Below, piece after piece: positions 4,930-35,287 of a DNA stretch of 64,000 nt (positions within the stretch are counted from its first letter, which is position 1; each line of letters starts with the position of its first letter). Below the pieces are notes generated by a model. That model did not search any database, had not been told where the DNA came from, and worked only from the letters and a program-made list of their open reading frames with translations. The stretch is from a virus, in IMG/VR virus record IMGVR_UViG_3300025093_000015, positions 1 through 64,000 of that record; one strand, written 5' to 3'. Made by a program: the position numbers and the translations under genes.

Positions 4930-5286
4930 ATGAAAAATTCTGTTTGGAAGATATTTGGGATCTACCTTTTATTGCTAGTTTGTATTTTATTTTCACAGCA
5001 ATCATTTGGTCAAGTAACTGTTGTACAGTACAATGCAAATTGGAATGATGCAAACAAAGTAACTTGGCTAAAAAAATTATCTGATGTTGATAAAGTAAAA
5101 GATGTATGTATAGCTGAAGATCCTAAAGCCCAACAAAAACATGAAATAGTTGTAGTACCTACTATAATTATTTTTAAAGATGGTGAAGAGGTAAAAAGAT
5201 ACCAAGCAGATATATCATTTACAATGAAGGCTACTAGAGAAGAGATACAAGAATTTATTGACGAACTTATAATGAGTGATTTTTAA
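4930..5286 (+). CDS. Exported thioredoxin-fold protein lacking the active-site cysteines
   Basis: 118 residues. Residues 1-28 form a Sec signal peptide (charged start, hydrophobic core IYLLLLVCILF, end FSQQSFGQ). The rest reads as a thioredoxin fold: strand VTVVQYNANW, a helix, then VPTIIIFKDGEEVKRY with the conserved cis-Pro after Val. The usual W-C-G-P-C-K active site is replaced by W-N-D-A-N-K, so redox activity is not expected, and a binding or scaffolding role in the periplasm is more likely. It is followed two bases later by the T9SS cargo gene, suggesting a joint envelope role. Confidence 0.7.
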   Translation: MKNSVWKIFGIYLLLLVCILFSQQSFGQVTVVQYNANWNDANKVTWLKKLSDVDKVKDVCIAEDPKAQQKHEIVVVPTIIIFKDGEEVKRYQADISFTMKATREEIQEFIDELIMSDF

Positions 5287-5287
5287 T

Positions 5288-7750
5288 ATGAAAAAACTTT
5301 TATTTCCACTATTAATATTATTATCTAGCTTTGCATTATCACAAAATTCTTATATTGTCATAGAAGCACAATATGATTCATGGGGACCTGCAGAATCTCA
5401 ATTTTATATTACAGATGCCCAAGGTGATACTGTGTATCATCATCAACCTACAGTGCAAAGTGAATATTTATTAGATACTTTATTTATAAACGCACAACCA
5501 CTTACGGCTATTTTATTAGATCAATATGGAGACGGATGGCAAGATACTGGTCAACAAGGTTATTTTAGAACATGGAATAATTGTCAAGATACAATAGTAG
5601 AATTTATATCTTCACCTACAAATTACTTTGCCACAGAAATAATAAACTTTAATCTGGGTCCATGTCTACCAAACGGACCTCCACCTCCACCATGCTTACC
5701 TGCAGTAGTTATAATTAATTTAGATCAGTATCAATCAGAAACGTCCTGGGAGATTACTGATACTTTAGGTTTTGTAGTAGCATCAGGTAGTGGTTATGGT
5801 TCACAACCAGATTATGGAACTGTTGTTGTTCCTGTATGTTTACCACAAACTGTATTAAATTTTACAATATTTGATTCTTATGGAGATGGTTTAAATGGTT
5901 CACTTTGGCAAGGTCAAGATGGATCTTATTTTGTTAAACAATGTGGTGATACGTTAGTATATGGTACAGATCCGGCTTTTGGTACAGACACAACACATGT
6001 CTTTACTATAAGTGAATGCCCTCCTATATATGGGTGTACAGATGATGATTATGTAGAATGGAATCCGTTTGCAGATACTGATGATGGTAGCTGTCAAACA
6101 TTAAAAGTATTTGGGTGCATTGATCCAGATGCATTTAATTATGATTCTACAGCTAACACAATGGACCTAGTTCCACAATGTGAGTTTACACTAATACTGC
6201 ATGATCTAATGGGTAATGGTTGGGTTGGTTCAAATTTAGAATTAGAGTTGCCTGATACGTCTTTTAATTTTACTCACACAGGTGGTTTCAATGATGAATA
6301 CCAATTTACAATAGATGCTCCGGATCCTGCTACGTTTAGGTTTCAAATATCTCCACAGGCTGCACTAACTACTATAGAGTGTGGGTTTACTTTACTTAAT
6401 CCAGAGGGTGATACATTAATTAGTGTTCAACCTCCATTTATACAACCTTTGTTTCCATATTCTTTTATTACTAATTGTGGTAATACGTGTATAGAAAAGA
6501 TATTTGGGTGTACAGATAGCCTAGCTTTAAACTATTATGATGAGGCTAATACAGATGATAGCTCTTGTTACTATGTGGCAGGATGTATGAACCCACTATA
6601 TTTAGAATATGATACAGCTGCTGATTATGATGATGGATCATGTGTAACTTTAATTGTTGCAGGATGCATGGACTCAACAGCTCTTAACTATGATCCGCTA
6701 GCAAACGTAGAGATACCAGGATCATGTGTAGCAATAGTAGAAGGATGTATGAATCCTTTAGCATTTAACTATAATCCTAATGCTAATGTTGATGACTCAA
6801 CATGTATACCAGTTGTTGATGGTTGTACAAATCCTATTGCACTTAATTATGATTCAACTGCTAATACAGATGATGGTTCTTGTGTATTACCAGTGCCAGG
6901 GTGTACAGACCCTAATGCATTTAATTACAATCCCCTAGCAAATGTAGATGACTCAAGTTGTATTGATATAGTATATGGTTGTACAGATGCTTCTGCTTTT
7001 AACTATAATCCTTTAGCCAATGTAGATAATGGTTCTTGTGAACCTTTTGTGTTTGGTTGTATGGATTCTACTATGTTTAATTTTAATCCTTTAGCAAATA
7101 CAGATGACAATAATTGCATTCCTTTTATTTATGGTTGTACTGATCCAAGCATGCTCAACTACAATCCACAAGCTAATACAGAAGACTTTAGTTGTATTGC
7201 TTACATTTATGGTTGTACTGATAGTACTGCCCTTAATTATGATCCGTTGGCTAATACTGACAACGGCACGTGTATTGAAGTGGTTACAGGGTGTATGGAT
7301 CAAGGTGCGTGGAACTATGAACCTTTAGCAAATGTTAATGACTCAGCTTCTTGTTTATATAGTGCTGGTTGTATTGATGGTCCAGGTAATCCTTATTGGT
7401 TAAATGATGGATGTTATGCATGGGTAATTGATGTAGATGTTTATTGCTGTGAAAATGCATGGGATGCATCATGTCAAACAATGTATGATTATTGTCAACT
7501 TGGATGGCCTACAAATATAGATGATTTATCAGTAATAGGTGTTGTAATATACCCTAACCCAACAACTGGAATTGTAAGAATATCTACAAGATTAGAAATA
7601 CAATTAAAGGTTTTAGATATGAGTGGAAAAACTATAATTGATGAGCTTAATCCACAAGTAATAGATTTATCAGACTATGCAGATGGTCTATATAATATTA
7701 TAGTAAATGTTAATGATAAACAATACTTCAATAAAATTATAAAACAATGA
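5288..7750 (+). CDS. T9SS-exported cell-surface protein with 13 Cys-rich repeats
   Basis: 820 residues from ATG at 5288 (a GTG twelve bases upstream would put residues before the signal peptide). Order: signal peptide (MKKLLFPLLILLSSFALSQ), two beta-rich domains with GDGW/GDGL turns (DQYGDGWQDTG, DSYGDGLNGS), a related third domain (DLMGNGWVGS) among the first repeats, thirteen units of the type G-C-[TMI]-[DN]-x7-N-Y-[DN]-P-x-A-N-x-D-[DN]-x-[ST]-C, a second Cys-rich module (CCENAWDASC), and a type IX secretion sorting domain at the C-terminus (VVIYPNPTTG, then VLDMSGK, DLSDYADGLY and the final KIIKQ). Known T9SS cargo is exported and anchored on, or released from, the outer membrane of Bacteroidota. 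This implies that the infected cell displays it. Confidence 0.85.
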   Translation: MKKLLFPLLILLSSFALSQNSYIVIEAQYDSWGPAESQFYITDAQGDTVYHHQPTVQSEYLLDTLFINAQPLTAILLDQYGDGWQDTGQQGYFRTWNNCQDTIVEFISSPTNYFATEIINFNLGPCLPNGPPPPPCLPAVVIINLDQYQSETSWEITDTLGFVVASGSGYGSQPDYGTVVVPVCLPQTVLNFTIFDSYGDGLNGSLWQGQDGSYFVKQCGDTLVYGTDPAFGTDTTHVFTISECPPIYGCTDDDYVEWNPFADTDDGSCQTLKVFGCIDPDAFNYDSTANTMDLVPQCEFTLILHDLMGNGWVGSNLELELPDTSFNFTHTGGFNDEYQFTIDAPDPATFRFQISPQAALTTIECGFTLLNPEGDTLISVQPPFIQPLFPYSFITNCGNTCIEKIFGCTDSLALNYYDEANTDDSSCYYVAGCMNPLYLEYDTAADYDDGSCVTLIVAGCMDSTALNYDPLANVEIPGSCVAIVEGCMNPLAFNYNPNANVDDSTCIPVVDGCTNPIALNYDSTANTDDGSCVLPVPGCTDPNAFNYNPLANVDDSSCIDIVYGCTDASAFNYNPLANVDNGSCEPFVFGCMDSTMFNFNPLANTDDNNCIPFIYGCTDPSMLNYNPQANTEDFSCIAYIYGCTDSTALNYDPLANTDNGTCIEVVTGCMDQGAWNYEPLANVNDSASCLYSAGCIDGPGNPYWLNDGCYAWVIDVDVYCCENAWDASCQTMYDYCQLGWPTNIDDLSVIGVVIYPNPTTGIVRISTRLEIQLKVLDMSGKTIIDELNPQVIDLSDYADGLYNIIVNVNDKQYFNKIIKQ
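6032..7354 (+). repeat. Thirteen in-gene tandem Cys-rich protein repeats
   Basis: Thirteen units of about 22 residues, spaced 27-99 residues apart, each opening with Gly-Cys and closing with Cys, with a core Asn-Tyr-[Asp/Asn]-Pro and a DD[GS]SC ending. Units 5-13 are the most regular; units 1-4 are more diverged and separated by longer insertions. The conserved Asp/Asn positions suggest metal (calcium) binding and each unit a disulfide. Confidence 0.85.
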
Positions 7751-14207: not shown

Positions 14208-15110
14208 TTACATTTCAAAATCAAAGGTTTCTTCATCAACCTCAATAAAACCGGCCTCTTCTGGCTCAACTGGTAGTTCAGAAGTATATTCTCCAGCATC
14301 TACTTCAGCTATCTGCTGATCAATTGTAAGTTGATTAGGATCTATTGGATCTGACTCAACATTATTTGTATCAGTAGTTTGTATTGTAGATTGACTTAAG
14401 CATTCTGCAATCATAAATTCATGAAACTTTTGTTGATCAGACATCCAAGACCTAGGATGTGACATCTTTAATGCATGTGTAACATGATTATAAAATGCCC
14501 ATGCTGTGTCTTGTCCAACACCATATTGATATGATGGTTTACTCATCTCTTTTTTGATGCAAGAAACTTGACTGCTATCTACTAACTCTTCCTCAATAAA
14601 TAAACGTCCCACTAGTTCTGCCTGCTCTTTATTAGACATAGTAACATTCTTCATTGAATCCTTATCATTGATAAGCTTTGTATAATGTTTATTAGCATTT
14701 TTTATTTGTGACATTATTTGATTGAATGCTTCAGAGTCAGCATTACCTGTATGTTTTCTTGCATAGGTTGACATGTCACCTGCTACCATTCCGTTATTAC
14801 AAACAAATACGTAGGCTCCAATACCACATTGAAATCTAATTTGTTTATTATAACTATTGGTCCAGGCAAACATCATACCTAACTCAGGATCTTTTTGTGA
14901 CTTGATATGATAAATACCTTGTGCTATATTACAATCTCCTGTAGCTTTATACTCTTCATTGACAATATCAAAACCATGTGTTTTTAATAAGCTTCTGCTA
15001 GCATCAATAAGAAATTTGTGACGTATTACTGTATATGTGCTCCCATGATTTGGGAACTTAGCTGCAGCCAGATGATCTGCACTGCAACTAGTTGGTTTTT
15101 TGTATCCCAT
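14208..15110 (-). CDS. DUF932-like protein with acidic C-terminal tail
   Basis: 300 residues. The central part (RFQCGIGAYVFVCNNGMVAG followed by a helical region with KHTG) has the 'V.CsNGMv.gd' signature of DUF932 / phage-plasmid-like proteins, which often sit beside replication or SSB genes. The last 60 residues are acidic and probably disordered, ending in EEAGFIEVDEETFDFEM; such acidic aromatic ends resemble SSB-type interaction tails. Function unproven. It has its own promoter-like box at 15129-15136. Confidence 0.65.
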   Translation of the reverse strand: MGYKKPTSCSADHLAAAKFPNHGSTYTVIRHKFLIDASRSLLKTHGFDIVNEEYKATGDCNIAQGIYHIKSQKDPELGMMFAWTNSYNKQIRFQCGIGAYVFVCNNGMVAGDMSTYARKHTGNADSEAFNQIMSQIKNANKHYTKLINDKDSMKNVTMSNKEQAELVGRLFIEEELVDSSQVSCIKKEMSKPSYQYGVGQDTAWAFYNHVTHALKMSHPRSWMSDQQKFHEFMIAECLSQSTIQTTDTNNVESDPIDPNQLTIDQQIAEVDAGEYTSELPVEPEEAGFIEVDEETFDFEM

Positions 15111-15147: not shown

Positions 15148-17049
15148 TTAGAATAACAAGAGTTGATTGCTCTGTATTCCAATGATATTATTGATTTCTT
15201 TTTCAATAGCATCTAGATAATACTTTTCATTAATATCATATAAAGCCCATTCTTTGTGCTCTATATCATTCATAATAGTTTGCATCCATCTACCTGCTTC
15301 TAGTTGTATTTCTCTTCTGTCATTTTTATTGACTTTGATTATTTTACAACCACTGTTAGAGATATAATATCTATTTATTTTCTGTAGTTTATATTCTACA
15401 GGTTGGTTATGTTCTATAGATCTAGCAACTTGCTGCCAATTACCTTTTGATTTACCGCCAATACAATAATCAAGTATATTATTATTATTCTTAAGTGTCT
15501 CTTCTGGTAAAGTTCCATTAACAAAATATGCATACAATGCTTTTGGAATGATTAGTTTAGATTTGTTTTTATGAAGAGCTAACCCTTCAAATTCAAAACG
15601 TCCCTTACATTTAGCTTTACCATCTTCATCCACTGCAATATAATTATTAACATCAGCAAGAACAAGTTTAGAATATGTACCGTGCTCAAGAGCTAAACTA
15701 GTTATCTCTTCCCACTTCTTACATACATCTAAGTATATTTGCTTTTTAGATCTAGGTATTACTGTCTCAACACCATCTGTATTTTGCATCAATGGAATGG
15801 CTTCTGGAATAGCTTCACAGATCATTTCATATAACATCATCAGCGTAAGTTGACCATTAATAGTAATAAACATAGTAAACTGCGGATCATACAGGAAAGA
15901 GTTCTTGTCATTACTAAGACCATATGTACTGTTAAGTATAATTTTATATACATAGTTCATAGGATTACTCTTAGGAATCTTTTTTCTCTCTGTAAAGAAC
16001 CACTCATACAGATCACAAAATGCTTTCTTATCTAAGTGTGCAGGTGCAATCTTATTTTTAATTGCAAGGTTAGGATAGAAACTGGCAACATCTGAAGACA
16101 TAATAATATTATCTTCATCTGATTCATAAACACCCGGTTTGTTACAACCATGTGCACCACCCAAGCCAAAGTCTGTTTTAACATCCTTGTATATAACTGA
16201 ATATTTAAATCCACCTTTAGTAAAGTTTGGATTTATCTCTACAGTTTTAAATTTGTCAAGAAGATTATTAAACTCTGGTGTTGCAAACTCAATATAGTCT
16301 AGTATAATATCTTTTACCTTAATAACATTTCTATATGTTCTAAGTTTTTTTAATTCATACTTAGGTATACCAAGTTCTTTTCCAAGATAATATGCAAATA
16401 ACTCTTTACTAATCCTTGGCTCTGATGCACTGTATAAATTAATACCATACTGATCAGTCAGATTTTTACGCAAAGCAATCAAAGGTTTACATTGATTAAA
16501 TATTTCTTTGGTTGAGTCAACATCATTAATACAATAACCAACAATCATATCAAGCTGTTGTTTAGTTGTTATATTTGTATCATGAGGCAATGGCATATCA
16601 ACCATATTATCCCAATCCATACTATATTGAATCCATTTAAGACTAGACCTTTTAGCCATATTGTCCCAATGATTAAGTTTGTATACATCTATTTGTTTAA
16701 TAGACATATGCCATTCTGGAAACTCTTGAAACTCATTTTTATTAGATCTATCAATACAGGATTGAGCATATGTATAAATCTCTTCTGCTATGCTTTCTCC
16801 ATCCATGAGCTTCAGGTTTTCATGGTTTTTAATTATATTGTGAGTTATTTGGGCATCAAACGCTAGTCCATTATAGGATATATGCCACTCTCTATTTTCT
16901 ATGTTTTGTTTTAGGAAGTCTATGAACTTATCATAATCATTCTGTAATGAACATACAGAGAATATATGTGTCTCATCAGTTTTATAGTGTTTAAATACAC
17001 CAACAAAACAATTTGACAAAGTCTCATAGTCCATTATCCAATGGTTCAT
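15148..17049 (-). CDS. DNA polymerase, family B, with 3'-5' exonuclease
   Basis: 633 residues, short for the family (usually 750-900). Exonuclease motifs: WIMDYETL (DxE), ISYNGLAFDAQI (NxxxFD) and VGYCINDVDS (YxxxD). Polymerase motifs: A at about 315 (SDVASFYPNLAI, the DxxxFYP type), B at about 375 (KIILNSTYG) and C at about 425 (MQNTDGVETV), in which the usual D-T-D-S is N-T-D-G but the metal-binding second Asp remains. It is the replicative polymerase of the phage. PolB polymerases with compact fingers are known in crAss-like phages, among others. The start overlaps the small membrane gene upstream (ATGA). Confidence 0.9.
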   Translation of the reverse strand: MNHWIMDYETLSNCFVGVFKHYKTDETHIFSVCSLQNDYDKFIDFLKQNIENREWHISYNGLAFDAQITHNIIKNHENLKLMDGESIAEEIYTYAQSCIDRSNKNEFQEFPEWHMSIKQIDVYKLNHWDNMAKRSSLKWIQYSMDWDNMVDMPLPHDTNITTKQQLDMIVGYCINDVDSTKEIFNQCKPLIALRKNLTDQYGINLYSASEPRISKELFAYYLGKELGIPKYELKKLRTYRNVIKVKDIILDYIEFATPEFNNLLDKFKTVEINPNFTKGGFKYSVIYKDVKTDFGLGGAHGCNKPGVYESDEDNIIMSSDVASFYPNLAIKNKIAPAHLDKKAFCDLYEWFFTERKKIPKSNPMNYVYKIILNSTYGLSNDKNSFLYDPQFTMFITINGQLTLMMLYEMICEAIPEAIPLMQNTDGVETVIPRSKKQIYLDVCKKWEEITSLALEHGTYSKLVLADVNNYIAVDEDGKAKCKGRFEFEGLALHKNKSKLIIPKALYAYFVNGTLPEETLKNNNNILDYCIGGKSKGNWQQVARSIEHNQPVEYKLQKINRYYISNSGCKIIKVNKNDRREIQLEAGRWMQTIMNDIEHKEWALYDINEKYYLDAIEKEINNIIGIQSNQLLLF

Positions 17050-19369: not shown

Positions 19370-20548
19370 CTAAAAAGGTAAATCATTATGGCTACCAGCA
19401 TTAATAACATTTGTCAAATTAGTATCTACATCACTAACAAGTTGATCTGCAAACTCCGGTTTAAGTTTTAGATCAGATGCATTTAATGTAAAGACACTCT
19501 CTCTTGTGCCTGCACCAGAATAACCAGATAATACACGTTTAAACATAGTATTAGCAATTACTCTTGACGCAAACATAGTAAGACATTTATCTTTACACAT
19601 ATTTTTAATTAAGACATCATATGCATGTCCCCATTGACTCAATGATAAGTTAATATATTTATCATATACTTTTCTTAAAGATTTAAAGTTAACGGTATTC
19701 CATACATTAGATACTTTCATATTCTCAGAATCAAATGCAAATAATAATGCAAGATATGTTTTTGATGCTTCTTCATTACAATTAGCCATCATACTTAATC
19801 CAACACTAATATTTTCTTTATCTGGAGATGTAACAAGTTTATGTATATTTTTAAATGATTCTTTATCTATGATAATAGAATCTTCTGTACATAACTTATT
19901 CATGTGTTCATCACTAACATATGTATAATTAGAATTAACTATGTTATTGTAATGTTCATACATTTCTATAGGTACAAATTCTACATAATTACGTGACTGT
20001 GAACGCACACTTCCGGTAAATTTTTCTATCAAATCTGTGTAAACATTTTGCGTAGAATGATAGTAATAACCATTTGATACCATAATATGTGAATTACTTT
20101 CAATATGTAATAATTTTTTTGCTACTGAATCTATATGCTCTTGAGATATTTTAGAACTACGTACAATTTCTAATAATTCAGTTCTTTTGTCATTAGTCAT
20201 TTGATCTGAACCACCCCAATAAATTTTTATACATTTATCTATAGTCTTATCACCTACAATAACTAATTGTGCATCATCTATATTACGTGTAGTTTTAAAA
20301 TTACATTTTTCTTGTAGTATAGATAATTTATCTCTAGATAATTGTAGATGTGGTAATCTATAAACTTTATCAACATTAGCAGTTAACCATGCAGAATCAG
20401 GTTCTTCACAATCAACTAAGTTTTGAACTAATTTACTACTAGAACGATTAGAATCTCTAACTCCAGCATAATAACCCATGTGTTTTACAATAAATCTAAA
20501 ATCACTTTGCGTACCTCCAGCTATTTCTATTTCATATAACTTTTTCAT
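19370..20548 (-). CDS. Partner protein P2 of the MoxR/VWA unit, SSB-like DLPF tip
   Basis: 392 residues. No known family, but clearly related to the gene upstream: both have a 'LP...(VL)S.D(RK)(IL)...L.......T..(IL)D.A(DQ)(LV)(IV)I..' block (here LPHLQLSRDKLSILQEKCNF) and a later block with D..N...G......N. The last residues GSHNDLPF equal the consensus tip of bacterial SSB proteins (D-D-[IL]-P-F), which binds replication and repair proteins. It overlaps the upstream gene by four bases. Probably acts on replication or chromatin along with the ATPase, by inference. Confidence 0.6.
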   Translation of the reverse strand: MKKLYEIEIAGGTQSDFRFIVKHMGYYAGVRDSNRSSSKLVQNLVDCEEPDSAWLTANVDKVYRLPHLQLSRDKLSILQEKCNFKTTRNIDDAQLVIVGDKTIDKCIKIYWGGSDQMTNDKRTELLEIVRSSKISQEHIDSVAKKLLHIESNSHIMVSNGYYYHSTQNVYTDLIEKFTGSVRSQSRNYVEFVPIEMYEHYNNIVNSNYTYVSDEHMNKLCTEDSIIIDKESFKNIHKLVTSPDKENISVGLSMMANCNEEASKTYLALLFAFDSENMKVSNVWNTVNFKSLRKVYDKYINLSLSQWGHAYDVLIKNMCKDKCLTMFASRVIANTMFKRVLSGYSGAGTRESVFTLNASDLKLKPEFADQLVSDVDTNLTNVINAGSHNDLPF

Positions 20549-21588
20549 TTTAAATACTTTTTATATTCTGGTTTAACACTTACTTTAAATACATACAAGT
20601 CTCTATTATCTATTCTTATTTCTTTTCTAACAATAGATTCTAAATACTTAAAAGATTCTTTGTTAAGAGTATCTTCTTCTTTCATCCACTGGATTTGATC
20701 TAGTGCAGACCTATGATAATACTCATCTATTTTAGACGCCCTCTTCCAATACTGAACATCTTTATTCCTATTATACATGTACATGTTACTATACAGTTCA
20801 TAAGATAATGTCCATAGTAAATGGTGATTATATCTATAATCAATGGTAGGTAGTATAGCTCCTATCATATTCCAGTCATCACCAGAACCACTATTCTTCA
20901 TAGATATTAGATCTTGTAAAAGTCTTTCATCTAATTTAATTTTAGTAGCTGACTGATGCATAACTTTCTCTACATCAAATATTGGTTTACCCATCTCAAC
21001 TGCATATGCAGCATTAACTGCAAGACCAGAGATCATATATGCATCATAAGGAAACTCTAATCTATTTGCTTTGTAATTACCAACAAATCCTTCTTCAACT
21101 TTATTACAGTATATAACTCTAGCTAATTCACCACCTCTTGCGTTTGCTGCACAATAATCATCTACTTCTGTACAACCAGCATCAATAGAATCATGGTTAT
21201 ATATAGTATTTAATAAATAATTATGATTAATATTATCAGATGTTTCTGTCGTTGTACCAAGGTATCCGTGAGATATTATAACATCAGCAGCATCAAGATC
21301 CTTAGTAATACTTATACTATGTTCTTTTAATGCAGCTTTAATTCTATCAGTAGAAACAGGACAATTAGGAAGTACAAATGCTTTTTTATATAGTGTCATG
21401 TCCGGTTGAACATCACAATCATTTTTGTCAAGAATACCATCTATTTTTTTAGAAGTATAATCTGACTCATCAATATAAACGGTTTCTATTGTACCATTTC
21501 TATCAACCATGACCCCATAAGGGTCACAGTCAATAGAGAAATGTTCAATAGCATCAGGATTAAACTCCTGGTGTATTGCTCTTGCCAT
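20545..21588 (-). CDS. Partner protein P1 of the MoxR/VWA unit (paralogue of P2)
   Basis: 347 residues with LPNCPVSTDRIKAALKEHSI then TKDLDAADVIISHG, matching the same block in P2. A 'CTEVDDYCAANARGGELARV' stretch with two Cys follows. No catalytic motif known to me. It begins one base before the MoxR-type ATPase stop region and overlaps P2 by four bases, so ATPase, P1 and P2 are co-translated. A substrate adaptor or remodelled target is a reasonable guess. Confidence 0.55.
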   Translation of the reverse strand: MARAIHQEFNPDAIEHFSIDCDPYGVMVDRNGTIETVYIDESDYTSKKIDGILDKNDCDVQPDMTLYKKAFVLPNCPVSTDRIKAALKEHSISITKDLDAADVIISHGYLGTTTETSDNINHNYLLNTIYNHDSIDAGCTEVDDYCAANARGGELARVIYCNKVEEGFVGNYKANRLEFPYDAYMISGLAVNAAYAVEMGKPIFDVEKVMHQSATKIKLDERLLQDLISMKNSGSGDDWNMIGAILPTIDYRYNHHLLWTLSYELYSNMYMYNRNKDVQYWKRASKIDEYYHRSALDQIQWMKEEDTLNKESFKYLESIVRKEIRIDNRDLYVFKVSVKPEYKKYLK

Positions 21589-21589
21589 A

Positions 21590-22852
21590 TTATTTTACGG
21601 TCATTTTAATGATTTCAGGATTCATCATCATTTTATTAAACTTAGATTTATTACCGTTAAAGATTGTACGCACAACAAGATACTTAAGATCATCAGTAAA
21701 GTAATCTTTAGTACATAATGCAATTAATCTATCAGTAATTTTTTGTGAGACAGTGTTTTCTTTAGAATATACAACAGAATAGTTTGCCAATCTGGTAGCC
21801 AGAGTTGATGCAATGTCTGCTCTATATGTATCATCTTTACCAACACAACCTCTTAGTTCACCAAGAATATATTGCTCATTATCATGAGTCAATAAATCTT
21901 TAGGTGTTACAAGCTTGTCAAGCTTATTATTAATAAATGTAGTAAACATAGATGCAAATGCATCACCTACACTACCTTCACCAATCATTTGGATCATAGA
22001 CAAGTTGTCTTCAAAAGATTCAAAGCTAGATATAGCATTAAAGAATGCTGTAATAGATCTTGCATTAGTCTCTTGTGTTACAAGCTCCGGGTGTAACAAT
22101 AAGAAGTTAATACATCTAGTATCAATACCTTCTTCTTCTGCCCAACGAGCCCATACTTCCACATCAAACTTAAGATTAGCAGTAATATATCTAGTCTTTT
22201 GTGCTGAGTCAATACTATTAACCATGTAGTCTCCATTATCTGGATTACTAGTTAATATAATATGCCAGTCTTTTGGTAAAGACCATGAGATATATTGTTG
22301 TCTATCTACAAGTTCCATAACAGCTTGTATGAATCTAACATCTGCACGGTTCCAGTCATCAAGAAGAAGTATACCTCCATCTTTCTTGTCTGCAATCCAC
22401 TCAGGTGCACAGTAAGACATTCTATTCTTACCAGTCATCTTCCAACCTTGTCTAAGATACTCCTCAACTGCAAGCTCATCAACCCACTGTCCAACTTTCT
22501 TTGTAACAGCAGCATTACTAACTTGTGCAGCAGCCGCAGCTTTCTGTGCTGCAGTATAATTAAGATCATCAATCTTTTTTGCTACTTGCTTCTCTTTGTA
22601 CATTTGAAACTGACGAACTGGAAAACCTACAAGGTCACCCAACTCCTCAATCTGTGCAAGATTAAGCTTAACAAAGTTAAGATTGTTCTCTTTTGCTAGC
22701 TGTAATACAGCTGTAGTTTTACCAATACCTGATTCACCTACTACTTCAACAGCTACAGGATTTTTACCTCCTTCTTGTAAGAACCTATTGTTCTTTACTA
22801 TGTGGTTAACAAAACCTTTTAATTCATCAATGTTTAAATTTACTTGTGCCAT
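21590..22852 (-). CDS. MoxR-type AAA+ ATPase (CobS-like)
   Basis: 420 residues. Walker A at about 35 (VVGESGIGKTTAV), followed by EELGDLVGFPV, the MoxR/CobS pattern after Walker A. Walker B and sensor: GGILLLDDWNRADVRFIQAV, RQQYISWSLP, WHIILTSNPDN, with a RYI..NL stretch near the arginine finger. MoxR ATPases work with a VWA protein to insert metals or remodel complexes; the VWA gene is the next gene upstream. Similar CobS-like genes occur in marine T4-like phages. Ala-rich insertion YTAAQKAAAAAQVSNAAV near residue 98 is unusual. Confidence 0.85.
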   Translation of the reverse strand: MAQVNLNIDELKGFVNHIVKNNRFLQEGGKNPVAVEVVGESGIGKTTAVLQLAKENNLNFVKLNLAQIEELGDLVGFPVRQFQMYKEKQVAKKIDDLNYTAAQKAAAAAQVSNAAVTKKVGQWVDELAVEEYLRQGWKMTGKNRMSYCAPEWIADKKDGGILLLDDWNRADVRFIQAVMELVDRQQYISWSLPKDWHIILTSNPDNGDYMVNSIDSAQKTRYITANLKFDVEVWARWAEEEGIDTRCINFLLLHPELVTQETNARSITAFFNAISSFESFEDNLSMIQMIGEGSVGDAFASMFTTFINNKLDKLVTPKDLLTHDNEQYILGELRGCVGKDDTYRADIASTLATRLANYSVVYSKENTVSQKITDRLIALCTKDYFTDDLKYLVVRTIFNGNKSKFNKMMMNPEIIKMTVK

Positions 22853-22856
22853 AATT

Positions 22857-24020
22857 TTAATTTAATTGTATTTTAAGACCTGGTAAGTCCTGATTAATAT
22901 TGCAACGAGAACTATGTACCCATAAGGTATTGTGTGGACAGTTCTCCGGAGTATATGCTTCTCCATCTGTTAAATATATAAGGGCTGTGTATTTCCCCTT
23001 CTTTTCATTAAAGTGATCTATAACAGGTTGAAAGCTTGTACCACCTCTACCTTTGATCTCCCAATCCTTTCTTGGATTGAACTCTTCTACTGAATTTAAT
23101 TGTGTATCACATTGAGCAACTGTAATCTTGTGACCAGTCTTATGCATATGCACCAACTCATTCATAAATTCTTTTAGTTCAGAATTAGATACTGATCCTG
23201 ATGTGTCAACACCAACTAGTATATTATTCTTAAACTTAATCTTAAGACCCGGATTTTCTACATACCTTTTGTTATACTTACGTCTTAACTTCTTAGTATA
23301 TGATACGCTAGAATTACCAACAAATCTTCTTAAGTATCCTTTCCAATCAAACTTTGGAGGCTCAATATGTCTAAGTCTTCTAATAAGATCTGCAAGTTCT
23401 CCTGGTATATTACCACGTCTCTTTTCAGTTTGCTCTGCAGTTTCTTTCATCTGATGCTGTACTTGCTTTTCTACAAGCTTCTGTTCAGCTTCTGTAAGAT
23501 CTTCAAACTCTTTCCATGTACCATGACAATACTGACTATCACCATCCATTTGATCTAATAAAGAATCTAAAGATGGACAACTACCAGATTTTTGTTCTTG
23601 CTCAAGTAACTCATAGTACTTAATAGTACCAGCTTTCTTTGGAAGATTTAATTCTGGAAATGTATCAAGAGTTAAACCACCTTCAGGTAACTGATCAGCG
23701 GCTATATATTGATTAATCTCAAGATCTGCAGCAATATTAAATAGTTTATGATTACTAAACCTATCTCTCATTGTTATATGTCCAAAAGACACATGCAACA
23801 ATTCATGTTTTAATAATCCTATTCTTTGTTTCTCATTAAGATCAGCAAAGAAACCTGGGTTAATAGATAGTTGAACACCTATACCATTTTTACTCACACC
23901 TGCAGTAGGTATGTCTTTACGCATTTGTTTGTTTAATCCAATCAAAAAGAGCCCGTAATAGGGCTCATCTAAGATTAAGGATTTACTTGCTCTAGCAAGA
24001 ATATCTGATATATTTACCAT
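22857..24020 (-). CDS. VWA-domain protein with HExxH metallopeptidase-like region
   Basis: 387 residues. Residues about 70-110 contain GLLKHELLHVSFGHITMRDR (HExxH zinc motif plus a later NIAADLEINQYI), matching the putative metallopeptidase region of VWA-like DUF2201 proteins. The C-terminus has a VWA fold with NILVGVDTSGSVSNSEL (MIDAS D-x-S-x-S), GRGGTSFQPV and IYLTDGEAYTPENCP. Metal-binding residues look intact in both parts. Pairs with the adjacent MoxR ATPase as in CobS-CobT and MoxR-VWA systems. Overlaps the upstream gene by seven bases. Confidence 0.85.
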   Translation of the reverse strand: MVNISDILARASKSLILDEPYYGLFLIGLNKQMRKDIPTAGVSKNGIGVQLSINPGFFADLNEKQRIGLLKHELLHVSFGHITMRDRFSNHKLFNIAADLEINQYIAADQLPEGGLTLDTFPELNLPKKAGTIKYYELLEQEQKSGSCPSLDSLLDQMDGDSQYCHGTWKEFEDLTEAEQKLVEKQVQHQMKETAEQTEKRRGNIPGELADLIRRLRHIEPPKFDWKGYLRRFVGNSSVSYTKKLRRKYNKRYVENPGLKIKFKNNILVGVDTSGSVSNSELKEFMNELVHMHKTGHKITVAQCDTQLNSVEEFNPRKDWEIKGRGGTSFQPVIDHFNEKKGKYTALIYLTDGEAYTPENCPHNTLWVHSSRCNINQDLPGLKIQLN

Positions 24021-24412
24021 GCTAATTCCAAATTAATTTTTTTTACAAAATTCTTACTACTCATGCTACCTAGGTATAACATAGTTATTTCATATTCTAC
24101 TATTCTTTTCTCTATATTGCTAATAGATTCTTTTCTAAGAATTTGAAATAAATCACTCCAAGGTTTACACTTGTCTCTAAGATCAGTTGTTCTTTCCATG
24201 ATTTCTTCTTCTGTATTCCAATTTTCTGCATTGACAAAAGATCTTATAAAATTAAATCTATCACTACTATCTAATGATTTAGCTATTGCTATTATTACAG
24301 CATCAGATACTTTTAAGCTTATAAGATTAGATATACCAATTTGCATATCTTCATCAGAACCTTTTATTAATCTTTTATTTTGTAAATATAATTCTAAAGT
24401 TAATTCAATCAT
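24014..24412 (-). CDS. Helical protein upstream of the VWA gene, unknown
   Basis: 132 residues, mostly helical: LYLQNKRLIKGSDEDMQIG, SLKVSDAVIIAIAKSLDSSD, TTDLRDKCKPWSDLFQIL. No motif recognised. Overlaps the VWA gene by seven bases and the DUF6915-like gene by eight, so it belongs to the same transcript. It may be a small subunit of the MoxR/VWA unit. Confidence 0.55.
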   Translation of the reverse strand: MIELTLELYLQNKRLIKGSDEDMQIGISNLISLKVSDAVIIAIAKSLDSSDRFNFIRSFVNAENWNTEEEIMERTTDLRDKCKPWSDLFQILRKESISNIEKRIVEYEITMLYLGSMSSKNFVKKINLELAW

Positions 24413-26572: not shown

Positions 26573-27274
26573 TTACAGTTCAAAGTCAGATCCACTACCT
26601 GATGTTCCTTCAAATGAAGAATCAGCAGCTGGTGTCTCTTTCCTTACAATCTCTCTAAGATGTGTAGACTTATCATATGTCATAAGTCTAGACTTAGTAG
26701 TATCAATATCTATAGCTTCTACAGGAACTCCATCTTTAGATGGTCTAGGTAAATAAAGATCATCATTAACATAACCTTCTTTATTTTCCCATTGTCTTGA
26801 ACCTATACAAGCATTAAAGAAATCACTATTAGCAAACAACGCTGATGCTTTTGTCATAAAAGCTTCTATTGTGTCTGCCTCAATAGCATCTAGTTCATCT
26901 CTTTTACCTAATTGCTCAGATAAAAAAATCATAGACTTCAATACTTCTTGATCTCTAGATACTTCACGTCCACTTGGAAGTGTTGCATCTTTATATGGAT
27001 AAGGAGTCATTCTAACTCTACCCACTTGACCTTCATATCTACCTTTAGATTGATCATTCATATCTCTATAGAAACCTTCAAAGTCTCCCTTAACTGGTTC
27101 TGTCTCTACATGTAGAGTAATATTGTACGCTTCAGAGTCATATGGTGTTTTATCAAATGTAACAGAATTAATTCTAACAACTTGATTACCTGGACTCATT
27201 ACTGGTTTTGGTCTGCTTGATCCAGCAGACATGTCTTTTGTATTAAACATAACTTTACTTTTTACTTCATTCAT
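26573..27274 (-). CDS. Putative single-stranded DNA-binding protein
   Basis: 233 residues. An OB-like strand pattern (NQVVRINSVTFDKTPYDSEA then YNITLHVET, GDFEGFYRDM, YEGQVGRVRMTPYPYKD) recurs in Bacteroidota phage proteins linked to SSBs. A linker rich in Asp/Ser follows, ending GTSGSGSDFEL, an acidic tip ending in hydrophobic residues as SSB tails do. It sits directly between primase and the Sak4-like ATPase. SSB identity is inferred from context and tail; no canonical SSB motif is obvious. Confidence 0.5.
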   Translation of the reverse strand: MNEVKSKVMFNTKDMSAGSSRPKPVMSPGNQVVRINSVTFDKTPYDSEAYNITLHVETEPVKGDFEGFYRDMNDQSKGRYEGQVGRVRMTPYPYKDATLPSGREVSRDQEVLKSMIFLSEQLGKRDELDAIEADTIEAFMTKASALFANSDFFNACIGSRQWENKEGYVNDDLYLPRPSKDGVPVEAIDIDTTKSRLMTYDKSTHLREIVRKETPAADSSFEGTSGSGSDFEL

Positions 27275-27279
27275 AATAA

Positions 27280-27960
27280 TTAATTTTCATAAGTTGTAAT
27301 ACAATCCTTTACGAATTGTAAATCATTAGGTATAAAGGAATCTTCAAACATTCCCATTGGAGATTTACATGTGTTTTCTCCATTATTTTGTGTATCAAAC
27401 CCATATTCTAATGAGTCTTCATTCTTCTTAACTCTACCAAATAATACAATAGAGAAAAGACCTTCCAAAGTTAAAGTATTATCTATCATCTTACCAATAG
27501 TTTTAGCTTTAACTTTTCTGTGTCCGTTAATATCAGTTGAATCTTCTGAATGAGTTAAGAAAAAGATAGTTAAGTCTTCTCTCATGTCTTTAGGCATCTT
27601 AGCAACTTGTGCTAAATTTGCTGCAATTTGAGTAAACTTATCATAACCTTTCTCACTAGCTCTATCAAAGTATTCAAAGCTGGACATATACTGCCAATCA
27701 TCAATAACTAATGTTTTGATGTGTGGCATCTTATCATTGACATGCATCATAGCCTTAACTATACCATTAGCAGATGAAGCTGAAGTCATATTACCCTTTG
27801 GATTTTCTTTACTAATATTTACGTAATTCTTCTTCCAACCTTTAAATGGTAACGGCTTGTTAGCAATGTTGATGATAAATGTTTCTTTAGGATCTAATGT
27901 CCTAATAGATGTGGACTTACCTGTCCCTGAGTCTGCAATGACTAATACACTTTGTGCCAT
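27280..27960 (-). CDS. Sak4-like RecA-fold ATPase
   Basis: 226 residues. Walker A: VLVIADSGTGKSTSIRTL near the start. Walker B: IKTLVIDDWQYMSSFEYFDR. A third strand TIFFLTHSEDSTDINGHRKV with a sensor His/Ser, and KAKTIGKMIDNTLTLEGLFS. This short RecA-like plan is that of Sak4 single-strand annealing ATPases, which pair with an SSB in phage recombination; the SSB-like gene follows by six bases. AAA+ identity is sure; Sak4 assignment is by motif order. Confidence 0.75.
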   Translation of the reverse strand: MAQSVLVIADSGTGKSTSIRTLDPKETFIINIANKPLPFKGWKKNYVNISKENPKGNMTSASSANGIVKAMMHVNDKMPHIKTLVIDDWQYMSSFEYFDRASEKGYDKFTQIAANLAQVAKMPKDMREDLTIFFLTHSEDSTDINGHRKVKAKTIGKMIDNTLTLEGLFSIVLFGRVKKNEDSLEYGFDTQNNGENTCKSPMGMFEDSFIPNDLQFVKDCITTYEN

Positions 27961-34654: not shown

Positions 34655-35287
34655 TTAATCTAACTCAAAAGTTACATCATCATCCTCATCAACTACCACT
34701 TCTTCTTTTGATTCTATTTCTTCAATAGAATCTTCTAAATCTACTTGCTTGTTACGTCTAGTAGACTTAGGCTTTTCTTCTTCATCATTAGCAGTCATTT
34801 CTTCCATTTGTTCTTTGGTTATCTTAACTGCTTTTGACTCAACACCATTAGCTTCTCTAATAGCTGCACCATTAGTATGAGCAATAAGTGTATCATGATC
34901 ATTCATATCCATAGAATAAAATGATTTTCTGTATATAGGACAGTCTACTTCACCTGTCTCTGGGTTAACACCTACACATACTATGCCTGTGTCCCCTGCT
35001 ACTTTAAGATCTCTATCAGGATTATCTGAACTAAATGGTTCAAATGATTCTCTAACAACAATCTTACCAGGCAATGTTTTTGCCTCAGCTAAACCTGTAG
35101 CTTGTAAGTCTTCTACAGTACCATGTATCAAGGTACTTCTACTCTGCTTCTTGACCCAGTTTCCGTTGCCAATAGCAGTTGTTTCCTGTACTAATCTAAC
35201 GTGTCCAAATTCAGGATTATTTTTGGATACTCTAATTACACTACCGTTGTCATCTGCAACAATAGTAACTTTACCATTTTCAGTCAT
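34655..35287 (-). CDS. Unknown protein with acidic C-terminal tail
   Basis: 210 residues. Beta-rich first 130 residues (GKVTIVADDNGSVIRVSKNN, GHVRLVQETTAIGNGNWVKK, KIVVRESFEPFSSDNPDRD), then a Lys/Arg patch (KPKSTRRNKQ) and an acidic tail ending DDDDVTFELD. A beta-rich body plus acidic tail would suit an ssDNA-binding or DNA-mimic protein, but no family is recognised. Followed by a terminator, so a separate, probably abundant transcript. Confidence 0.5.
   Translation of the reverse strand: MTENGKVTIVADDNGSVIRVSKNNPEFGHVRLVQETTAIGNGNWVKKQSRSTLIHGTVEDLQATGLAEAKTLPGKIVVRESFEPFSSDNPDRDLKVAGDTGIVCVGVNPETGEVDCPIYRKSFYSMDMNDHDTLIAHTNGAAIREANGVESKAVKITKEQMEEMTANDEEEKPKSTRRNKQVDLEDSIEEIESKEEVVVDEDDDVTFELD

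Follow-up and report, generated by a model that had tools for sequence, protein, structure and literature searches.

The window, a 64,000-nt stretch forming part of an 87.7-kb IMG/VR virus record, carries a replication/recombination operon on its minus strand. In order of transcription, the operon encodes a DnaB-type helicase, a Sak4-like annealase, an SSB-like protein, a primase and a RusA-type resolvase, followed by three small ORFs, a DUF2201/vWA protein, a MoxR AAA+ ATPase, P1, P2, a PD-(D/E)XK exonuclease and a family B DNA polymerase. The P1 and P2 genes are adjacent and overlap by 4 nt (Table 1). Both ORFs lie where the first-pass annotation had placed them, and P2 ends in GSHNDLPF, as it had recorded.

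Table 1. Features of the P1/P2 locus, in window coordinates.
Feature	Position	Strand	Basis or remark
P2, tip-bearing paralogue, 392 aa	19370..20548	-	AF2 pLDDT 82; no PHROG/Pfam/NCBIfam family
P2 residues 61-111, alpha/beta segment common to P1, BRCT-like by weak structure match	20216..20368	-	
P2 residues 213-341, helical domain common to P1 and partly to g24014	19526..19912	-	
P2 residues 375-392, predicted disordered tail (pLDDT < 50), past the P1-homologous core	19373..19426	-	
NDLPF tip codons (SSB-Ct-like) of P2	19373..19387	-	Only GANYTNCCNTTYTRR match in the window
P1, tip-less paralogue, 347 aa, ends KPEYKKYLK	20545..21588	-	
P1 residues 66-107, homologous to the P2 BRCT-like segment	21268..21393	-	
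P1 residues 206-327, helical domain homologous to that of P2	20608..20973	-	
PD-(D/E)XK exonuclease, directly downstream of P2	18288..19316	-	PF12705 4.3e-11, phrog_412
MoxR-type AAA+ ATPase	21590..22852	-	phrog_1297 8.7e-37; directly upstream of P1 in loci examined
DUF2201 metallopeptidase-like and vWA-like protein, MoxR partner	22857..24020	-	PF13203 1.7e-21, PF09967 1.8e-15
g24014, small protein encoded upstream of vWA, perhaps holding the P1/P2 helical-domain start a third time	24014..24412	-	hhalign to P2 42-79%
Putative phage SSB-like protein, tail DFEL, co-occurs with P2	26573..27274	-	Position only, no family
Sak4-like ssDNA annealing protein, possible tip receptor	27280..27960	-	phrog_2872 5.4e-64

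The terminase (TerL) encoded in the window is 24-26% identical to those of crAss-like and Flavobacterium phages, and another window-encoded protein carries a type IX secretion system (T9SS) sorting domain (TIGR04183, 34.3 bits, cut-off 23). The crAss-like TerL and the T9SS sorting domain indicate that the phage host is very probably a member of the Bacteroidota. A host search with the phage UDG as query gave no match. The protein with the sorting domain (5276-7750, plus strand; 824 aa) has a signal-like N-terminus, tandem repeats of the GCTDxxAxNYNPxANxDDGSC type and a type A sorting domain. As a side reading, it may be phage-encoded cargo for type IX secretion by the host.

No convincing family was found for P1 or P2 in PHROG, Pfam or NCBIfam. 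Neither protein was matched in 50,697 annotated phage records or in the bacterial genomes searched, nor did their profiles match crAss-like isolates. Hits of P2 to ribulose-phosphate epimerase (NCBIfam) and to an anti-restriction family (PHROG) were rejected because their scores fell well short of the cut-off or lacked significance. P1 homologues also matched the death effector domain, but over about 30 residues and far below cut-off, which makes these matches a lead only. Sequence searches of the PDB with P1, P2, the SSB-like family and the protein occupying the SSB-like slot in a P2-less clade (see below) returned no usable match. In the open-access full text searched, we found no report of the P1/P2 pair or of the SSB C-terminal tip (SSB-Ct) on a phage protein that is not an SSB.

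Single-chain AlphaFold models were good for P2 (pLDDT 82) and poor for P1 (51). With Foldseek, the P2 model matched the BRCT domain of MCPH1 over 43 residues (probability 0.82, E 0.6), and in one P1 homologue residues 66-105 scored 14.4 bits against the Pfam BRCT cut-off of 21.3. These matches weakly suggest that the N-terminal segment common to P1 and P2 is BRCT-like.

The first-pass annotation had described P1 and P2 as duplicated proteins. Pairwise BLASTP gave nothing convincing (E 1.2) and hhalign with shallow profiles gave 4-12% probability, a result superseded by deep profiles built from 47-63 IMG/VR homologues each (about 60 for P1 and 50 for P2). With the deep profiles, P1 and P2 aligned over 276 collinear columns at 94.4% probability (E 9e-8); a separate run gave 85%, and E ranged from 6e-6 to 9e-8 over 275-276 columns. 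As controls, 16 of 17 other families from the same loci reached approximately 7% or less against P1 or P2. The exception was g24014 against P2; in g24014 the beginning of the helical domain may be present a third time, in shorter form. The P1 and P2 models also have the same top match in BFVD, the phage protein A0A6J5LXR8, and share two further, weak matches, one of them from a crAss-like virus. Two of the four significant BFVD matches of the P2 model come from one podovirus, again a pair. The deep profile comparison with its controls and the common structural neighbour thus bear out the duplication: P1 and P2 are paralogues, with collinear homology over most of both.

In the profile alignment the end of P1, KPEYKKYLK, sits opposite KPEFADQL of P2, and the rest of P2 is a predicted disordered extension ending in NDLPF. 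P1 reaches only to the end of the P2 core, and the disordered extension with the NDLPF tip is thus peculiar to P2.

We checked the tip in P2 homologues, as the first-pass annotation had proposed, and found it conserved. Of 50 distinct P2 homologues, all from metagenomic contigs, 28 have it at their end, against 0 of 63 P1 homologues. Only 3 of 761 other plus-strand ORFs of the same loci end in LPF, all three belonging to one family in P2-less phages; internally, the LPF tripeptide occurs at 2.3e-4 per position. When the P2 set was thinned to 43 sequences below 90% identity, 26 carried the tip. All 26 have LPF and one of D, N, E or S at position -5, and 22 have D at -4; from -6 upstream, both sequence and length vary. 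The tip has been kept while the remainder of P2 changed greatly. Its L, P and F are encoded by four, four and two codons, respectively, and since these change synonymously the constraint acts on the protein. An overlapping frame does not explain the tip, because over 50 bases separate the P2 stop codon from the start of the following gene in the window.

Because sequence counts are phylogenetically non-independent, we used a maximum-likelihood tree of P2 from which the last 30 residues were left out. The tip occurs in both deep clades and its distribution needs five to six changes; most simply, it would be ancestral and have been lost several times (about five losses). The tip-less lineages are L013, L024, L046, L064, the L031-L040 clade and the L074-L087 clade. 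L012 has what looks like a doubled tail (HNDDLGSHPNDLPF). A genome-wide search of long tip-positive genomes for [DE]-L-P-F-stop picked out P2, usually with no other match; an extra match in a 245-kb record was discarded as not a gene. The same search yielded no such pattern within a gene in tip-less genomes, where the record could be checked. Compensation for a tip-less P2 by a different DLPF protein was thereby rejected; it holds only in the P2-less clade. As several lineages lost the tip with no [DE]LPF protein elsewhere in the checkable records, its function is not essential everywhere. G009, the 245646-base record of L077, contains the complete P1/P2 operon twice, in diverged copies (118272-119510 and 239194-240420), possibly two phages joined in assembly.

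The end of P2 had been read in the first-pass annotation as the tip of bacterial SSB on a protein that is not itself an SSB. Three chromosomal-type SSBs of Bacteroidota end in TDDLPF, ADDLPF and ADDLPF, two of them annotated in mutY-ssb-gldE order; a Prevotella SSB ends in ANMPF and the SSB of E. coli in DDDIPF. Like an SSB tail, the P2 tail is disordered, has acidic/polar residues and finishes in [I/L]PF; at the extreme C-terminus its LPF is identical, and the tip overall near-identical, to the Bacteroidota tips. PF00436 (SSB) had no match in P2, the source record or the relatives tested, and matched the control genomes. No SSB was among the PDB matches listed by Foldseek for the P2 model. 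P2 is not an SSB, and the conservation of precisely the tip residues, their identity to Bacteroidota SSB tips (DDLPF) and the lack of an SSB match uphold the earlier reading. Unlike the bacterial SSB-Ct, the tip of P2 belongs to a phage protein paired with a tip-less paralogue and with a MoxR-vWA pair. A comparable case is DdrB of Deinococcus, a protein without an OB fold for which an SSB-like C-terminal motif has been reported; DdrB, however, binds and anneals ssDNA and its motif is dispensable for radioresistance (PMC3834827), whereas the P2 tip is evolutionarily conserved.

The phage's own SSB-like family ends differently, in DF[DE]L in 35 of 36 members; that it binds ssDNA is conjecture, based on its gene lying between those of Sak4 and the primase. 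In one clade, seven records lack both this family and P2. These phages keep P1, MoxR and vWA, and the gene after P1 encodes a FEN-type exonuclease in place of P2. The protein in their pre-primase (SSB-like) slot is unrelated to the SSB-like family of the window (hhalign 0.2%) and ends in EDLPF or DDLPF in L055, L098, L099 and L101, with other ends in L100, L102 and L103. It is encoded after the Sak4-like gene and one small ORF. Its homologues, at 25-29%, include crAss001 gp81 and further hypothetical crAss proteins, which end in PWG, PWF or similar. The tip on the slot protein represents one evolutionary event and is suggestive only.

The adjacent MoxR AAA+ and vWA genes resemble the core of the MoxR-vWA ternary systems, in which dedicated extra proteins are encoded alongside and the third component is VMAP, iSTAND or FtsH (PMC7159879). 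By contrast, P1 and P2 have no Pfam family or known effector domain, their members matching no Pfam family of VMAP, iSTAND or FtsH type, and they lie in a phage replication operon rather than a bacterial conflict island. In described MoxR-vWA systems there is an additional protein, and remodelling is believed to act on the complex that contains it. By analogy, P1-P2 could be that additional protein.

The SSB-Ct is presented in PMC10164576 and PMC10018359 as the docking peptide of many genome-maintenance proteins. Most simply, then, a conserved copy of it on a disordered phage tail would allow P2 to dock such proteins. We lean towards the view that P2 mimics the host SSB tip and docks SSB-interacting enzymes to a P1-P2/MoxR-vWA module. 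One ancestor, with an alpha/beta (perhaps BRCT-like) segment and a helical domain, would have duplicated into P1 and P2, which would work beside the MoxR-vWA pair in the replication/recombination operon. During infection the [D/N]DLPF tail of P2 would occupy the SSB-Ct pocket of at least one host partner of SSB, of the PriA, RecO, RecQ/RecG, RecJ or DnaG type. These enzymes would either be recruited to the phage module or be held there away from host SSB, and the phage's own SSB-like protein would meanwhile bear its different tail, DFEL. The first-pass annotation had suggested that P2 could be drawn to, or imitate, ssDNA complexes; since SSB uses the tip as bait for its partners, the effect would be to bring those partners to P2 and not to bring P2 to ssDNA.

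Host targets are favoured because the tip consensus is that of host SSB and because the same phages end their family B DNA polymerase in a motif of beta-clamp type. In the window this polymerase (15148-17049, minus strand) ends in QLLLF, and QLxLF lies at the C-terminus or at most four residues from it in 23 of 23 homologues. QLxLF-type peptides bind the bacterial beta-clamp, and docking on host hubs thus fits the style of these phages. Against mimicry by P2, single SSB tips bind weakly and owe their avidity to SSB tetramers, which P2 would need to replace. Against docking of a host protein, there are candidate phage receptors in Sak4, P1 and the primase.

A reading in which the receptor is phage-encoded has a smaller but appreciable chance of being right. 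Here the Sak4-like annealase (or the exonuclease, primase or P1) would bind the P2 tail, and P2 would be a loader supplying an SSB tail in trans, since the SSB-like protein ends in DFEL. Sak4 is the strongest such candidate because Sak4 of phage HK620 uses a PF-ending SSB tail, requiring the last six residues of its own SSB, NDYPPF (PMC5928155). In both phages a recombination operon combines a Sak4 annealase with a tail ending in PF, although the HK620 tail is on SSB itself (PMC5928155) and here it is on P2. The order of genes in the P2-less clade, with the EDLPF protein close after the Sak4-like gene, also agrees with a phage receptor. However, the sequence of the tip is that of the host SSB consensus and not a phage-specific variant, and the tip-less lineages retain the same operon and Sak4 family.

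It is unlikely that the P2 tail is mainly an inhibitory decoy, blocking host nucleases and helicases (RecJ, RecQ or ExoI type) or SSB-sensing defence proteins at their SSB-Ct pockets and so protecting phage DNA. Mimicry of a host peptide, repeated loss of the tip, which fits a host-specific role, and avoidance of the host tip by the phage SSB-like protein are in keeping with a decoy, but a monovalent tip would inhibit weakly unless P2 were abundant or multimeric, and the operon context is one of replication and recombination. A degron is very improbable. In Streptococcus mutans, where SsbA is turned over by ClpXP, LPF suffices for degradation of GFP in strain UA159, yet it is not recognised in E. 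coli, other streptococci or several S. mutans strains (PMC5143411), and a degron of LPF alone leaves the constraint at -5 and -4 unexplained. That the tip is functionless, through chance or drift, is hardly credible: approximately 40% of P2 homologues lack it, but LPF is invariant in carriers despite synonymous codon change and a variable linker, stands against a background of 3/761 and is conserved at about 30% overall identity, which refutes this reading.

If P2 is indeed a mimic of the host SSB tip, phage MoxR-vWA modules would be tied to control of host SSB partners. Cases in which evolutionary evidence documents a phage imitating a bacterial hub peptide are rare, and a five-residue peptide is directly testable, giving a first functional handle on the unannotated P1-P2 pair beside MoxR-vWA in crAss-like phages. 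More speculatively, SSB function may be split in these phages. A phage ssDNA-binding protein with a private DFEL tail would coat the DNA, and the hub peptide would sit on a separate adaptor, P2, working with the MoxR-vWA remodelling machine; where the adaptor is absent, the peptide would be found on a protein in the SSB-like slot. We regard this arrangement as a tentative possibility; if true, the phage would gain control over which host repair and replication enzymes enter.

Other C-termini in these phages also stand out. The FEN-type exonuclease of the P2-less clade, a 250-aa ORF after P1 in L052, L056 and L061, ends in DDLWQ or DSLWQ. The crAss001 gp81 family (L109:4956-5876) lies between Sak4 and the primase, with the EDLPF tail in marine-type relatives (L098, L099, L101) and PWG/PWF-type tails in gut phages; it is a candidate crAss-like ssDNA-binding protein. 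A second recurrent acidic C-terminus, DF[DE]L/M or TFEL, is found on the SSB-like protein (35/36), a DUF932 protein and others, at 26573-27274, 14208-15110 and 34655-35287 of the window (all minus strand) and in L098-L103. These termini are possibly a private phage tail code.
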